Of a stretch of 61,924 nt of DNA, positions 37,105 through 51,964 are shown piece by piece; position 1 is the first letter of the stretch; every line of letters begins with the position of its first letter. Below the pieces are notes generated by a model. It saw only the letters and a program-made list of their open reading frames with translations, was not told where the DNA came from and did not search any database. Source of the DNA: Alphaproteobacteria bacterium (lineage in GTDB: Bacteria > Pseudomonadota > Alphaproteobacteria > UBA828). Location: the NCBI GenBank assembly GCA_011523425.1, contig WTGU01000084.1, positions 1 to 61,924 on the forward strand. Reading direction: 5' to 3'. The position numbers and the translations under genes are program-made.

Positions 37105-38403
<1,299 letters not shown>

Positions 38404-38404
38404 C

Positions 38405-40060
38405 TTATTCTCCTGATCCGGCGGCGCCGTCGTGAATGGTGTTCAGCACCTGATAGGCGGGAAGCGTGAGGAAGTTGGGGAAGTCCTCGGCGGTCGCGAC
38501 CTCGGCGAAGAGGGCGACCGCCTCGTCGAAATGGCCGCCGTCGAAGCGGTCGGCGCCGAGCGTCTCCCTCAGGCCCGCGACCTCCTCGGCCAGCAGCCCC
38601 TCCACCAGCGCGCGATCGACGGCGCGGCCGTCCGCAAGCCGCGCGCCGTGGCGGATGCCCTGCCAGATCTGGGCACGGCTGATCTCGGCGGTCGCCGCGT
38701 CCTCCATCAGGTTGTAGAGCGGCACGGCGCCGCGCCCGGCGAGCCACGCCTCGATGTACTGGACGCCGACGCGGATGTTGGCGCGCAAGCCCTCCTCGGT
38801 GAGCGCGCCCTCCGGCACCGCCAGAAGGTCTGCCTCGGTCACCGCGAGGTTGCCGATCGCGCGCGAAAGCTGGTTGGCCTCCGGCATCAGGCGGTCGAAC
38901 ACGTCGCGGGCGACGGGCACGAGGCCTGGATGGGCGACCCAGGTGCCGTCATGGCCGTCGCCGGCTTCGCGCTCCTTGTCGGCGCGGACCTTCGCGAACG
39001 CCTCGTCGTTCGCCTCGTCGTCGCCCTTGATGGGGATCTGCGCCGCCATGCCGCCCATCGCGTGCGCGCGGCGCCGGTGGCAGGTCTCGATGAGGAGCCG
39101 GCTGTAGGCGCGCATGAACGGCTGCGTCATGGTGACGAGGCCGCGGTCCGGCAGCACCCAGTCCGCGCGGTTTCGGAAGGTCTTGATGACGCTGAAGATG
39201 TAGTCCCAGCGGCCGCAGTTGAGGCCGACGATGTGGTCCTTCAACGCGTGCAGGATCTCGTCCATCTCGAAGGCCGCAGTGATGGTCTCGATCAGCACCG
39301 TCGCCTTGATCGTGCCGCGGGGGAGGCCCAGCTCCTCCTGGGCCGCGACGAACACGTCGTTCCAGAGCGCGGCCTCCTCGTGGTGCTCCAGCTTGGGCAG
39401 GTAGAAGTAGGGGCCGGAGTCGCGCGCCATGAGCCGGGCCGCGTTGCGGAAGAAGAAGAGCCCGAAGTCGACGAGGCTCGCGGACGCCGGCCGGCCGTCC
39501 ACCAGCACGTGCGCCTCTTCCAGATGCCAGCCGCGCGGGCGCACGATGAGGGTCGCGGTCTCCTCGCCGAGCGCATACGACTTGCCGGTCCTCGGGTCGG
39601 TGAGCGCGATGGTGCGGCTCACGGCGTCCCGCAGGTTGACCTGGCCCGCGATCATCACGTCCCAGGTGGGCGCCGCGGAGTCCTCGAAATCGGCCATGAA
39701 GCAGGAGGCGCCGGAGTTCAGCGCGTTGATGACCATCTTGCGGTCCACCGGCCCGGTGATCTCGACCCGCCGGTCGGCGAGGTCGGCGGGCGTGCCGGCG
39801 ACGGTCCAGTCGCCGTCGCGGATCGCCTGCGTCTCGGGCCGGAAGCCCGGGTTCTCGCCGGCGTCGATGCGCGCCTGGAAGTCCGCCCGGGCCGCGAGCA
39901 GGCGCCGCCGCTCGGCGCCGAAGCGGCGCTCCAGCATGGCGACGAAGGCGGCGGCGTCAGCGCTCAGGATCTCGGCGAGACCCGGAACGATGGGGCCGAC
40001 GATGCTGACGCCCGGATCCCAGGGCGTCTCGACTTCCTTCCTGCGGCTCTGCTGCATCAC
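38405..40060 (-). CDS. aceB: Malate synthase A
   Basis: A 551-residue malate synthase condensing glyoxylate with acetyl-CoA. Its length and the sequence [20 protein letters not shown] (about residues 188-207), [20 protein letters not shown] (about 264-283; the Arg/Glu region binding Mg and glyoxylate) and [16 protein letters not shown] identify the A isoform and not the larger G isoform. It is the promoter-proximal gene of aceB-aceA. Just upstream is a TTGCA-TGC-TGCAA palindrome and an AT-rich promoter region shared with the divergent regulator. Confidence 0.96.
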
Positions 40061-40070
40061 CTAGCGTCCC

Positions 40071-40083
40071 TTGCATGCTGCAA
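40071..40083. promoter_or_regulatory. TTGCATGCTGCAA palindrome upstream of aceB
   Basis: A perfect 13-bp palindrome (TTGCA arms, TGC centre) starts 11 bp upstream of the aceB ATG. RamB-type regulators bind TTTGCAAA-like sites (known in actinobacteria). It is therefore a candidate operator for the divergent regulator gene. Confidence 0.45.
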
Positions 40084-40247
40084 CGCAATATGGGCGGACT
40101 GTTGCCCGACACGACGGAAAAGTCCATAACTTGCTGGAAAAAAAGATGTATTTCAGTCGCATTTCGTGTATTTTCTTCTGTCATTTTGTAAATATTGTAT
40201 TGGTGGGGCGCCGGGGGCGTTCGCGGCGCGCGTGACGGGGGCAGGTC
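40084..40247. promoter_or_regulatory. AT-rich divergent control region aceB / scfR
   Basis: The stretch 40130-40205 is conspicuously AT-rich (for example GGAAAAAAAGATG, TTTTGTAAATATTG) inside very GC-rich DNA. It separates aceB (minus) from the regulator (plus, 40248). TTTTGTAAAT at 40183-40192 is another TTTGCAAA-like box. Promoters for both directions are expected here but no single -35/-10 pair stands out. Confidence 0.5.
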
Positions 40248-41684
40248 ATGCAGGGAAAGCTGATGGCGGGCCAGCGGGTGCGGCGGCTGCGGCGGGAGCG
40301 CGGCCTCACCCAGGCGCGCATGGCGGCCCAGCTCGGCATCTCCACCAGCTACCTGAACCTGATCGAGCGCTCGCAGCGGCCGGTCACGGTTCCTTTCCTG
40401 CTCCGGCTCGGCCAGGCCTTCGACGTCGACCTGCAGCGCTTCGCCGAGGACGACGAGGGGAGGGTCACCGCCGCGCTCAGGGAGGTCTTTGGCGACCCCC
40501 TGTTCGCGCGCAGCCAGGTAACGGATCAGGACATCCGCGACGCGGCGCAGGCGAGCCCGGCGCTGGGCGACGCGGTCGTCCTGCTCTTCCGCGCCTACCG
40601 CGACCTGCTGGAGAACGCGATGGACCCGGCGGAGGCGCAGCGCGGCAGTCTATCGTCCGCCGCGGCGGCGGCGGCGGCCGCAGCGGTCCGCGCACCCGGC
40701 GACGAGGTTCAGGAGGCGATGCAGGCCCGCTCCGGCTACGTCCACGAGCTCGAGGAGGCCGCCCAGCGGCTCTGGGCGGAGGCGGGCCTCGAGACCGACG
40801 GCCTCTACGAGGGCCTCCGTGCCGTTCTCACCGACGCTCACGGCCTCCGGGTGCGTATCCTGCCTGCGGAGGTGATGCACGACCTTGTCCGGCGCTACGA
40901 CCGCCACGGCCGCCGCGTGCTGCTGTCGGACGCTCTGGCGCCGGAGGAGCGCGCCTTCCAGCTCGCCCATCAGCTCGCGCTGCTCGGCTGGCGCGAGACG
41001 ATCGACGACCTCGCGGCGGGCTCGGGCCTGGAGGGGGCGGCGCGCGACCTCCTGGTCGTGGAGCTCGCGAACTATTTCGCCGGCGCCTGCCTGATGCCCT
41101 ACGAGCGCTTTCTCGAGGCTGCCGACGGCCTCGCCTACGACATCGACCTCCTCGGCCGCCGCTTCGGGGTCGGGTTCGAGCATGTCTGCGAGCGCCTCGT
41201 CACCCTGCAGCGGCCAGGGGCGAAGGGGCTGCCGTTCTTCCTCGTCCATCTCGACTGCGCGGGCAACGTGCTGCGCCGCGTCGACGCGGGCGGCTTCCGC
41301 TTCGCGCGCTTCGGCGGTCTCTGCCCGCGCTGGGGCGTGCACCGCGCGTTTCAGACCCCCGGCGAGACGCGCGTCGAGATCGTCGAGATGCCGGACGGCG
41401 CACGCTTCCTCACCGTCGCCCGTGCGGTGTCGCGCCCCGGCGCCGGCCACGCGCTGCCCGGCCAGCAGCGGGCCATCGCCATCGGCTGTTCGCTCTCCTA
41501 CGGCGCCGGCCTCGTCTACGGCGCGGGCATCGACCCCGAGCGTCCCGCCGCCGTGACCCCCATCGGCGTCAACTGCCGCCTCTGCGAGCGCACCGATTGC
41601 AGCCAGCGCGCCGTCCCGCCGCCGGGCCGGCGCCTGATCGTGGACGAGAACCAGCAGGGGCTCTCGCCCTGGTTCTTCGCTTGA
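40248..41684 (+). CDS. ScfR/RamB-type XRE-family transcriptional regulator
   Basis: A 478-residue short-chain-fatty-acid regulator. An XRE helix-turn-helix spans about residues 8-62 (RVRRLRRERGLTQARMAAQL, STSYLNLIERSQRPVTVPF). A low-complexity alanine stretch lies at about 139-147. A central IrrE/peptidase-like domain follows (DALAPEERAFQLAHQLALL, ELANYFAGACLMPYERF). The C-terminal ScfR domain has Cys-rich VNCRLCERTDCSQRAVPP near 443-460. Relatives sense acyl-CoA levels and control glyoxylate or methylcitrate genes. Divergent placement next to aceBA strongly suggests control of that operon. ATG at 40248. Confidence 0.88.
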   Translation: MQGKLMAGQRVRRLRRERGLTQARMAAQLGISTSYLNLIERSQRPVTVPFLLRLGQAFDVDLQRFAEDDEGRVTAALREVFGDPLFARSQVTDQDIRDAAQASPALGDAVVLLFRAYRDLLENAMDPAEAQRGSLSSAAAAAAAAAVRAPGDEVQEAMQARSGYVHELEEAAQRLWAEAGLETDGLYEGLRAVLTDAHGLRVRILPAEVMHDLVRRYDRHGRRVLLSDALAPEERAFQLAHQLALLGWRETIDDLAAGSGLEGAARDLLVVELANYFAGACLMPYERFLEAADGLAYDIDLLGRRFGVGFEHVCERLVTLQRPGAKGLPFFLVHLDCAGNVLRRVDAGGFRFARFGGLCPRWGVHRAFQTPGETRVEIVEMPDGARFLTVARAVSRPGAGHALPGQQRAIAIGCSLSYGAGLVYGAGIDPERPAAVTPIGVNCRLCERTDCSQRAVPPPGRRLIVDENQQGLSPWFFA

Positions 41685-41706: not shown

Positions 41707-42615
41707 TCAGGCGGCAGGCACCACGGCGCCGTCCCAGCCGGCGGACGCCAGCACCGCCTTGTCGACGATCAGCCGCGCCGCCATGGTGGGCCGGGGCGAG
41801 GTGCCGATGCGGAGCTCGCCGACGATGCCGAGCAGCATGTAGGCCTCCCGCCGCGAGAGCCCGGTCCAGCGCGAGACCAGGCCGACGGCGGCATTCGAGG
41901 CGTCCTCGGTCGCCGCTTCCACCGAGGGGCCGTAGCCCACGATCTGCACCGTGCCGTTCTGCTCGAAGATCGGCCGTTCCACCGGGCTCTCCTTGTTGAG
42001 CGCGATCCGCGCCCGCACCCGCGCCGAGCACTCGACCCCGGTGCCGCTGATGATGCCGTCGCTGATCGCAGCATGGGGGTCGGCCATGAAGATCAGCGCG
42101 TCGTCGACCATCACCGGCAGGTGAACGCGGGCGCCGACTCCCACGTCGCGCTGGTCGAAGTCGCCGCCGTAGGGGCCCGCGTGGGAGGGCCGGTAGCCCT
42201 CGGGCGGCATGGTGCTGAGCGTGCCCAGATTGGGGGCGAGCGGGATCGCCACCCGGTTTCCGAACCAGGCCTGCCCGTCGCGGATCGGGCAGGAGACGAT
42301 GGCGGGCTCGGCGAATTCCTCCTTGAGGACGCCGAAGTCGCGCAGCACCGCGTTGGCGCCCTCGCCGAAGGGCTCGATCGCGAGCAGGTCGATCGCCACC
42401 GAATCCCCCGGCCGCGCGCCGCTGACGGCGATCGGGCCGGTCACCGGCGCGAGCGGATGCCCCTCCGAGGCCGGCGTGAACGGCGTCGGCACCGCGGCGA
42501 TGTCCTCGATGTCGTCGAAGGCGCCGTCGACGGTGACCTCGATCTCCGTGCCGGGGTCGATGGTCATGGCCGGCGGCGTGGCCGGGCTGACGGTGAAGAG
42601 GTAGGTCTTGGCCAT
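41707..42615 (-). CDS. Acetamidase/formamidase-family protein
   Basis: A 302-residue FmdA/AmdA-type amidase. Family stretches are DPGTEIEVTVDGAFDDIEDI near residues 21-40, GPIAVSGARPGDSVAIDLLA (about 61-80), GPYGGDFDQRDVGVGARVHL and MADPHAAISDGIISGTGVEC (about 175-194), which corresponds to the metal/active-site GDxHaxqGDGEvxGT region but with Ile-Ile replacing the usual Glu-Val/Ile. It may hydrolyse small amides to ammonia and acids. It lies 24 bp downstream of a Rieske oxygenase gene, on the same strand, so the two are probably co-transcribed. Confidence 0.82.
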   Translation of the reverse strand: MAKTYLFTVSPATPPAMTIDPGTEIEVTVDGAFDDIEDIAAVPTPFTPASEGHPLAPVTGPIAVSGARPGDSVAIDLLAIEPFGEGANAVLRDFGVLKEEFAEPAIVSCPIRDGQAWFGNRVAIPLAPNLGTLSTMPPEGYRPSHAGPYGGDFDQRDVGVGARVHLPVMVDDALIFMADPHAAISDGIISGTGVECSARVRARIALNKESPVERPIFEQNGTVQIVGYGPSVEAATEDASNAAVGLVSRWTGLSRREAYMLLGIVGELRIGTSPRPTMAARLIVDKAVLASAGWDGAVVPAA

Positions 42616-47331: not shown

Positions 47332-47904
47332 TCCGGCCGCTCGCTCCGGCGGGGCAGGGCGGACGGCGCCCGCACGACGGGGAGGAAGACGATGTGAGCG
47401 CTGGGATGCCTTCGCCCGCTTCCTCGACGACGGGCGCATCTGCCTCACGAATAACGCGGCCGAGAGGGCGCTGCGTGGCATCTGTCTCGGACGCAAGTCC
47501 CGGTTGTTCGCGGGCGCCGATCGCGGCGGCCAGCGCGCGGCGGTGATGCATGCGCTCATCGGCACCGCCAAGCTCAACGCTGCCGCCCCCCCCAAAGCTT
47601 GGCTCGCCAACGTCCTCAAGCCCTCGCGGCCAGATCTGCGTCGCTCAGTGAAAGCTCCCGCAGGGCCCACCGGCTGGACCGTGGTGCTTTACCAGCCGCG
47701 GTTCTGACGGAATAGATATGAAAAAGATATCTAAATAGTCAGATAATTCACACTAATGATACATGCGATGAGTTATGTTACGCTGCAGATCGCCATTCGC
47801 CGAGACGGCGCGAGAGCTGGAGCGCGAAGGGCGAGTTGGTAGCGCTAACCGACCAGAACTTGTTGTGACTCGCGTTGGCGCCCTCAAAGGAGGAGTGATA
47901 GAGG
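47332..47904. other. Degenerate region with IS66 relic and AT-rich DNA
   Basis: Between parE and the DUF1330 gene. It holds the 3' part of an IS66 transposase frame (47396-47707) and then a short, strikingly AT-rich stretch (47711-47775: for example AAAAAGATATCTAAATAG) unlike anything nearby. No terminal inverted repeats of an intact insertion sequence were seen. Confidence 0.65.
47396..47707 (+). pseudogene. IS66-family transposase (TnpC) C-terminal remnant
   Basis: The frame from 47396 reads ERWDAFARFLDDGRICLTNN, then AAERALRGICLGRKSRLFAG and later RAAVMHALIGTAKLNA with PPKAWLANVLK. This is the conserved C-terminal end of IS66 TnpC, including the NNxAERALR segment with the catalytic Glu. 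No start codon or N-terminal four fifths is present. After the conserved end the frame runs on about 30 codons to a TGA at 47705-47707. It marks an old insertion. Confidence 0.85.
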
Positions 47905-50722: not shown

Positions 50723-51817
50723 CTATCCCTCGGCGTCGGACGCCAGGCACCCCGCGAACGAGGCGGCCATGGTGCGCAGCAGCGTCTCGTAGAGCGCCGG
50801 CCCGTCCTCGATGTCGGCGCCAAGCGGGTCGACGGTGCCGGACCGGACGTCGCTGCCTTCGATGACGGTCCGCACCAGGCGCTGGTCGAACTGGGGCTCG
50901 TCGAACACGCAGACCACGCCGAGCGCGTCCAGCTTGTCGCGGAGCTCGGCGATGCGGCGGGCGCCTGGCGGGCGTTCGGGGCTCACCACGACGGAGCCGG
51001 CGGCGGCGAGCCCGAAGCGGTCTTCGAAGTAGCGGTAGCCGTCGTGGAAGACGATGAACGGCATGCCCCGCGCCGGCGCTACCTGGGCTGCGACCTCCCC
51101 GGTCAGACGGTCCAGGCGGTGCAGCAGCGCATCGACGTTCGCCTCGTAGGTCGCGGCGTTGGCGGGGTCGACCTCGGCCAGCGTGGCCGCGATCGCGCGC
51201 GCCATGGTCCAGCCGTTGATGGGGTCGAGCCAGACGTGCAGGTCGTAGGCGCCGTGCTCGTCGTGCTCGTCGGCATGGTCGTCGTGATCGTCGTGCCCGT
51301 GCCCGTGGTCGTCATGATCGTCGTCGCGGTGCATGGCCGCGTCGTGGTCGTCATGGTCGTCATGACCGTGCCCGTGATCGTCCTCTCCCTGATGCCCGTG
51401 GCTGCTGTGGTCGTGCTCCTCGAAGGCGCCGCCCTCGCGGATCGGCTTCTTGATCAGGCCGGGGACGTCGAACAGCCTGACCACGCGCGCGTGCCGCGAC
51501 AGCGCATCGACCGGCCCGGCGAGCGCGGTCTCCATGGTGTCGCCGATCAGGAAGACGACGTCCGCGTCCTCGAGCGCCGCCGCGTCCGAGGGGCGCATGG
51601 TGAAGGTGTGCGGCGACGAGGCGCCCCGGATGACCAGGTGCGGCTCGCCCACGCCCGCCATTACCGCGCTTACCAGCGAATGCACCGGCTTGATCGAGGC
51701 GACGACCTGCAATCCGTCGTCATCGGCCGCGGCCGGCCCCGCGACCGCACAGCCGAGGAGAGCCGCCGCGGCGAGTGTCAGGGCAACGCGTCGTGCTTCC
51801 ATCGCCGGACGATCCAT
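50723..51817 (-). CDS. znuA: Zinc ABC transporter substrate-binding protein ZnuA-like
   Basis: A 364-residue periplasmic zinc-binding protein. The N-terminal signal peptide (RVALTLAAAALLGCAVAGPAAA) precedes VVASIKPVHSLVSAVMAGVG and SSPHTFTMRPSDAAALEDAD, which gives the first metal His. A His/Asp-rich loop of about 55 residues (about 178-233; repeated DDHDDH and HGHGHDDHD units) is a zinc-sensing or scavenging loop. DLHVWLDP, FIVFHDGYRYFEDRFGLAA and DEPQFDQRLV complete the cluster A-I SBP fold. znuB and znuC are not in the window. The ATG at 51817 has GGGGAGA upstream; an internal ATG at 51802 is possible. A candidate Zur site lies just upstream. Confidence 0.92.
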   Translation of the reverse strand: MDRPAMEARRVALTLAAAALLGCAVAGPAAADDDGLQVVASIKPVHSLVSAVMAGVGEPHLVIRGASSPHTFTMRPSDAAALEDADVVFLIGDTMETALAGPVDALSRHARVVRLFDVPGLIKKPIREGGAFEEHDHSSHGHQGEDDHGHGHDDHDDHDAAMHRDDDHDDHGHGHDDHDDHADEHDEHGAYDLHVWLDPINGWTMARAIAATLAEVDPANAATYEANVDALLHRLDRLTGEVAAQVAPARGMPFIVFHDGYRYFEDRFGLAAAGSVVVSPERPPGARRIAELRDKLDALGVVCVFDEPQFDQRLVRTVIEGSDVRSGTVDPLGADIEDGPALYETLLRTMAASFAGCLASDAEG

Positions 51818-51850
51818 GATGATGTCTCCCCATGCCGGGCGGTTATACGA

Positions 51851-51871
51851 GCAATAATGTAATAATGTTGC
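51851..51871. promoter_or_regulatory. Candidate Zur box upstream of znuA
   Basis: An AT-rich imperfect palindrome (GCAATAATG ... TAATGTTGC; 14 of 21 positions symmetric) stands 34 bp upstream of the znuA ATG, beside TATAAC (51847-51842 on the minus strand) as a possible -10. Position and base composition fit zinc-dependent repression by Zur. Confidence 0.5.
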
Positions 51872-51964
51872 ATTTGTTTCTGGCCTTTTGCAAGCGGCAC
51901 GCAGGGCGGATGCGGCCTTGCCGTCGGGCGATGTGAGCGTGCCGCCCGTCACGTCTCGGGCTCG

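Follow-up and report, generated by a model that had tools for sequence, protein, structure and literature searches.

Which sequence switches the glyoxylate shunt genes at this locus, and what does it respond to? The window, by which we mean the whole stretch of DNA analysed, comprises 61,924 nt of Alphaproteobacteria bacterium (UBA828; GCA_011523425.1, contig WTGU01000084.1, forward strand 1-61,924). Its intergenic region 40061-40247 separates aceB-aceA on the minus strand from an ScfR-family regulator gene on the plus strand. The preliminary description of this DNA had placed two boxes here, a TTGCA palindrome TTGCATGCTGCAA and the sequence TTTTGTAAAT, beside an AT-rich core. Our analysis points, with a probability of roughly 0.9, to a class 2 RamB operator consisting of two groups of half-sites, A and B, which would serve as an acyl-CoA-responsive switch of aceBA.

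The divergent genes and the regulator protein

Profile matches identify the genes on both sides. Malate synthase A is encoded by aceB (38405-40060, minus strand; NCBIfam malate_syn_A, 814 bits against a cut-off of 594) and isocitrate lyase by aceA (37105-38403, minus strand; 724 bits against 562). The gap between them is 1 bp, and the two genes are probably expressed from a shared transcript. The start codon of aceB is the ATG at 40057-40055, preceded by AGGGACG, with a GTG one codon further upstream. The ramB-type gene occupies 40248-41684 on the plus strand (Pfam ScfRs, 199 bits against 24, together with an NCBIfam scan). It thus lies divergent from a malate synthase or isocitrate lyase gene, the arrangement expected of class 2 RamB. 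The proposed divergent arrangement around 40061-40247 is therefore confirmed, and the identities of aceB, aceA and the regulator justify calling the region a glyoxylate shunt control region. On the far side of ramB, and convergent to it, lies an acetamidase/formamidase-like gene (41707-42615, minus strand; FmdA_AmdA, 63 bits); a reading frame of this kind also adjoins ramB in a genus relative.

The regulator has the domain order of the ScfR family (short-chain fatty acyl-CoA regulators): an XRE helix-turn-helix (PF13560/PF01381), an IrrE-like domain (Peptidase_M78, PF06114; 80 bits, cut-off 22) and the ScfR C-terminal domain (PF09856; 199 bits, cut-off 24). The C-X2-C-X4-C iron-sulphur motif of that family is present as well, with Cys359, Cys443 and Cys446 found in all 128 aligned relatives and Cys451 in 126 of them. 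A profile search detected no second ScfR protein in the genome. Solved structures of Mycobacterium tuberculosis PrpR span most of the protein (286 bits with 6cyj), which by comparison with PrpR carries a CoA pocket. The actinobacterial RamB equivalog model NF038139 gave 390 bits against a cut-off of 700, so the regulator is not the same equivalog as Corynebacterium glutamicum RamB (class 1), an acetate regulator that belongs to the ScfR family too and has its domains in the same order. A placement of the window regulator in class 2 would be based on its operator, the order of the genes and its domains, not on a tree.

A conserved tandem box in front of ramB

Phylogenetic footprinting, which the preliminary description had suggested for the aceB-regulator region, was done with RamB relatives gathered from 40 relatives of the organism (21 with a match) and 386 genomes of its class (69 with a match at E <= 1e-100), supplemented by a scan of named genomes, of which the best 80 loci were used. 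The RamB start was placed by tblastn alignment in 168 loci, the whole-genome and named-scan loci overlapping. A divergent aceA (92) or aceB (42) was found in 134 of the 168, some of the aceA matches being distant isocitrate lyases of about 30% identity. Upstream regions of at least 90 bp were available for 167 loci, and 156 were kept after dropping those more than 80% identical without gaps. This set retains many relatives, Bradyrhizobium above all, so the counts given below are not independent events.

De novo expectation-maximisation on the 156 upstream regions yielded the motif attTGTAAAttTTGTaAA, and a 50-base search of the same regions revealed a further TGTAA box at a distance of 32 bp. 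Relative to box A, as we call the main site, mean scores peaked at +9, -8, -9, -17 and -32. Column conservation in 140 anchored regions showed TGTNA half-sites at -37 (weak), -29, -5, +3 and +12, and their alignment a conserved TGTAA at -29 and a G at -36. The threshold of 8 bits was exceeded by 138 of the 156 regions, a figure that includes the training set; within the window's own family, held out from training, 15 of 16 regions reached at least 8 bits and the exception has a truncated upstream. On the minus strand 40/156 regions also reached 8 bits, the half-site being partly self-complementary. A conserved tandem box was thus what the footprinting found; the palindrome was not conserved.

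In the window, box A lies at 40185-40201 on the plus strand and consists of the tandem RamB half-sites TTTGTAAA-T-ATTGTATT, 17 bp long with a period of 9 bp. A matrix trained with the window's family left out, on 140 regions, gave it 15.8 bits (40184-40201), which ranks first among 123814 positions; the next-best score in the window, both strands included, is 4.9 bits. Of 10000 shuffles of the intergenic region, 13 reached this score. The sequence TTTTGTAAAT, at 40184-40193, belongs to the conserved tandem TTTGTAAA-N-TTTGTAAA, falling in the middle of its 17 bp, and a motif search on those 140 regions recovers this tandem unaided. Of the two boxes proposed earlier, this one stands and TTGCATGCTGCAA does not; the tandem partner half-site, group B and the predicted aceB promoter had been overlooked.

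Nowhere else in the 3.6-Mb genome is box A matched exactly. With up to two mismatches, the 16-base box pattern occurs at 2 genomic places, compared with 3 and 2 for a reversed control. We therefore rejected a wider RamB regulon in this genome and credit only the exact match in the window. Likewise, TTTGTAAA occurs once in the window free of mismatches, and the octamer pattern with at most one mismatch is not commoner than chance across it, so the value of TTTGTAAA comes from its context.

That context comprises further half-sites. TGTCA at 40179-40183 on the plus strand (5.1 bits), 8 bp ahead of box A, corresponds to the conserved TGTNA at offset -5. Group B (40147-40159, plus strand) is formed by TGTAT at 40147 and AGTCG at 40155, which precede their group A counterparts by 32 bp; TGTCA (40179), TGTAA (40187) and TGTAT (40196) complete the series. 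The group B segment is weak at 6.2 bits, a score reached by 18 of 5000 shuffles. Measured against the class 2 RamB pattern of two near-identical boxes with an 18-bp spacer, the window has a strong box A and a partner that is correctly spaced and weak.

This architecture has a precedent. Kremer et al. (2023; PMC10370305) showed that RamB of Paracoccus denitrificans Pd1222 (Pden_1365), a class 2 protein, is both activator and repressor; it binds to a pair of boxes in the ramB-ms interval, and mutating either box abolishes acetate induction. The protein is described as a tetramer that gives way to dimers with CoA esters, beta-methylmalyl-CoA being the best, and a RamB motif was derived from 67 genomes. 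Scored with our matrix, the verified wild-type probe from that work reaches 16.5 bits at box 1 on the ramB strand, with box 2 found exactly 32 bp off at 1.9 bits, and the published double mutant falls to -3.8 bits or below. Paracoccus and the window share an ScfR-family regulator divergent from malate synthase (ms) and isocitrate lyase (icl) genes; the start-to-start distance of 32 bp between the boxes agrees as well, group B being the weak partner in the window. They differ in the distance of box A from the regulator start codon, which is 46 bp in the window, whereas the Paracoccus box abuts this codon in the probe sequence, and in that the second box sequence is weaker in the window. This class of operator is already known from Paracoccus, and the window locus is most probably a further member of it.

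The AT-rich core, the predicted aceB promoter and the aceB leader

The AT-rich core noted earlier is real: GC content over 100 bp drops to 0.35 at 40102-40201, compared with a window mean of 0.71. Genomes of high GC content often have AT-rich promoters, and two more stretches of the window fall below 0.50 GC, at 47649-47829 (minimum 0.37) and 51789-51911 (minimum 0.47), which may be other promoters. One could accordingly regard the core as only a promoter or a nucleoid-protein site, with the regulator acting elsewhere. We consider this extremely improbable, because the RamB motif is conserved with fixed spacing and is absent from the other two AT-rich stretches, the best score elsewhere in the window being the 4.9 bits given above.

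The core also holds a candidate promoter of aceB. In 17 of the 140 regions the element GTCYATAA sits precisely at offset -62 relative to box A, and in two at -63. In the window it reads TTATGGAC on the aceB strand (40129-40122), and its spacing makes it a plausible -10 of aceB. The corresponding -35 (40147-40152) would overlap group B, on the outermost half-site, and aceB transcription would be expected to start near 40116-40118. A scan with the sigma-70 consensus gave no promoter match in the region, so it is from the spacing that we infer the identity of the promoter.

The palindrome TTGCATGCTGCAA (40071-40083) is located next to the ribosome-binding site, within what is predicted to be the aceB leader. 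As the main operator of this regulator, or that of a second one, it would block transcription inside the leader. It is a perfect 5-bp inverted repeat, the only one in the region (spacer 0-8), and a TTGC..GC segment at its place is loosely conserved in the window's family. Nevertheless, the exact sequence recurs in just 1 of the 134 upstream regions with divergent aceA or aceB (3 of 134 with at most one mismatch), its symmetry is broken even in genus relatives, and it does not fit the conserved motif. Nor is such a repeat unusual, as 74% of 2000 shuffles of the intergenic region contain at least one, with a mean of 1.7. Conservation and chance expectation thus led us to reject TTGCATGCTGCAA as an operator; a regulatory role for it is very improbable, and we regard the palindrome as incidental.

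The loosely conserved TTGC..GC segment might instead belong to a structured aceB mRNA leader, with a hairpin before the ribosome-binding site acting post-transcriptionally. Twelve leaders were aligned for covariation, and 11 of them were folded for z-scores, L010 being left out. Leader length is constant (66 nt as cut) in 9 of the 11, and two leaders, L011 (z -3.3) and L012 (z -2.0), fold better than shuffles. The window leader does not (z -0.03), the mean over the 11 is -1.0, the hairpin arms keep no single register across the alignment, and folding the consensus gains hardly any energy. With no common register and a weak consensus the hairpin was rejected, and we judge a structured leader unlikely. 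An Rfam scan returned no family at threshold, its one sub-threshold match (13.6 of 40 bits) lying off the element. Several members of the family (L010-L016) have a GC-rich GCNNTGCGGAATAA-like element after box A, on the ramB side; it is similar to TTGCNNTGCGGCAT in the aceB leader and is not evident in the window's genus.

Operator layout across phyla and the signal of the module

The suggestion that the site logic is shared across phyla is supported from two sides. The Mycobacterium PrpR/RamB element consists of TTTGCAAA and TTTGCgAA one base apart, 17 bp in total (PMC6765138, our source for the actinobacterial end of this comparison). M. tuberculosis and the window therefore have the same 8+1+8 bp octamer layout, with TTTGCAAA in the former and TTTGTAAA in the latter, a change of C to T. 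Under the class 2 matrix, two-octamer layouts score a mean of 14.5 bits with a 1-base spacer and at most 5.8 with spacers of 0 or 2-6 bases. The regulators of both have an IrrE-like fold, a CoA pocket and the C-X2-C-X4-C motif.

The second line of support comes from 20 regions outside the alphaproteobacteria, titled Myxococcota, Acidobacteriota, Holophagaceae and the like, some of them from MAGs. A de novo run on these 20 alone, which is the independent check, gave t.gtAAatttTGTaAATt. At least 8 bits were reached by 16 of the 20, compared with 0.85 in shuffles, using a matrix whose final estimate was made on other alphaproteobacteria, although the matrix it was initialised with had been trained with the 20 included. 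Isolates among those passing are Anaeromyxobacter oryzae (19.0 bits) and Plesiocystis pacifica (25.4 bits); two Sorangium loci, Geothrix and one Acidobacteria MAG stay below the threshold. In Sorangium cellulosum (L131 and L144), TGTAAACTATTGTAAA appears to have half-sites 10 bp apart, not 9, and this period may account for the low matrix scores. Searches of the openly licensed literature listed no study of this operator beyond Paracoccus and the actinobacteria.

What the module senses appears less uniform. In Paracoccus, RamB is tied to the ethylmalonyl-CoA pathway. Crotonyl-CoA carboxylase/reductase (Ccr), the enzyme expected where the ethylmalonyl-CoA pathway controls RamB, scores no higher than 102 bits in the window genome, listed as 99.25% complete, and so stays below the cut-off of 378.55. 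Matches over the cut-off were obtained for prpB (387 bits against 354) and for a methylmalonyl-CoA mutase-type protein (871 against 304). Among 73 further genomes searched, Ccr exceeded the cut-off in 18 and not in 55. An ace-linked RamB with a box A of at least 8 bits was present in 50 of the 68 genomes with upstream DNA, the window's included, and these module genomes divide into 41 without Ccr and 9 with it. Within the window's own genus, two of the five genomes searched (G002 and G006) have Ccr over the cut-off and the window genome does not, so the pathway varies inside the genus.

Residues of the ligand pocket differ as well. The selectivity residue, Phe155 in PrpR and His143 in M. tuberculosis RamB, is Gly151 in the window regulator, the column having been set by comparing 6cyj (F155H chain, His) with 6cyy and 6cz6 (Phe). 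Val, Ser, Ile, Gln, Leu, Gly, Ala or Thr occupies this position in 121 of the 128 relatives. PrpR Arg348 corresponds to Arg344, an arginine kept in 124/128 relatives, and PrpR Arg159 to Gln155, where 77/128 have arginine. Given 41 of 50 module genomes without Ccr and the diverged selectivity residue, gene content makes it unlikely that the Paracoccus signal, an intermediate of the ethylmalonyl-CoA pathway, is the general ligand.

For the window locus, the class 2 RamB operator suggests the following mechanism. The regulator (40248-41684) would bind the tandem TTTGTAAA half-sites of group A (40179-40201) and also the weaker half-sites of group B (40147-40159). The 32 bp between the groups correspond to three helical turns, which would put both on one face of the DNA, and group B, by overlapping the predicted -35 of the aceB-aceA promoter, would govern it. 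By analogy with Paracoccus, a RamB tetramer across both groups would repress, and acyl-CoA in the pocket would convert it into dimers that, in contact with RNA polymerase, activate aceBA during growth on acetate. Autoregulation of ramB through box A is likely, because the box lies 46 bp from its start codon.

A broader reading is that one module, tandem TTTGYAAA octamers of 17 bp repeated at a distance of 32 bp, governs the glyoxylate shunt in Actinomycetota, Alphaproteobacteria, Myxococcota and Acidobacteriota, its DNA part near-frozen and its ligand pocket diverged. In this reading, nearly all class 2 members have neither Phe nor His at the selectivity position, and the only class 2 ligand known comes from a pathway that most hosts lack. 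We put it forward tentatively, at somewhat less than even odds; if true, class 2 RamB would be a family whose acyl-CoA sensors can be exchanged while the operator stays constant. At the locus itself, the tandem TTTGTAAA site replaces the palindrome as the predicted switch sequence. This gives a precise candidate operator and takes a regulator-operator pair known from Paracoccus to further hosts. The ligand of class 2 RamB where the ethylmalonyl-CoA pathway is absent, as in those 41 of 50 module genomes, thereby becomes a testable question.
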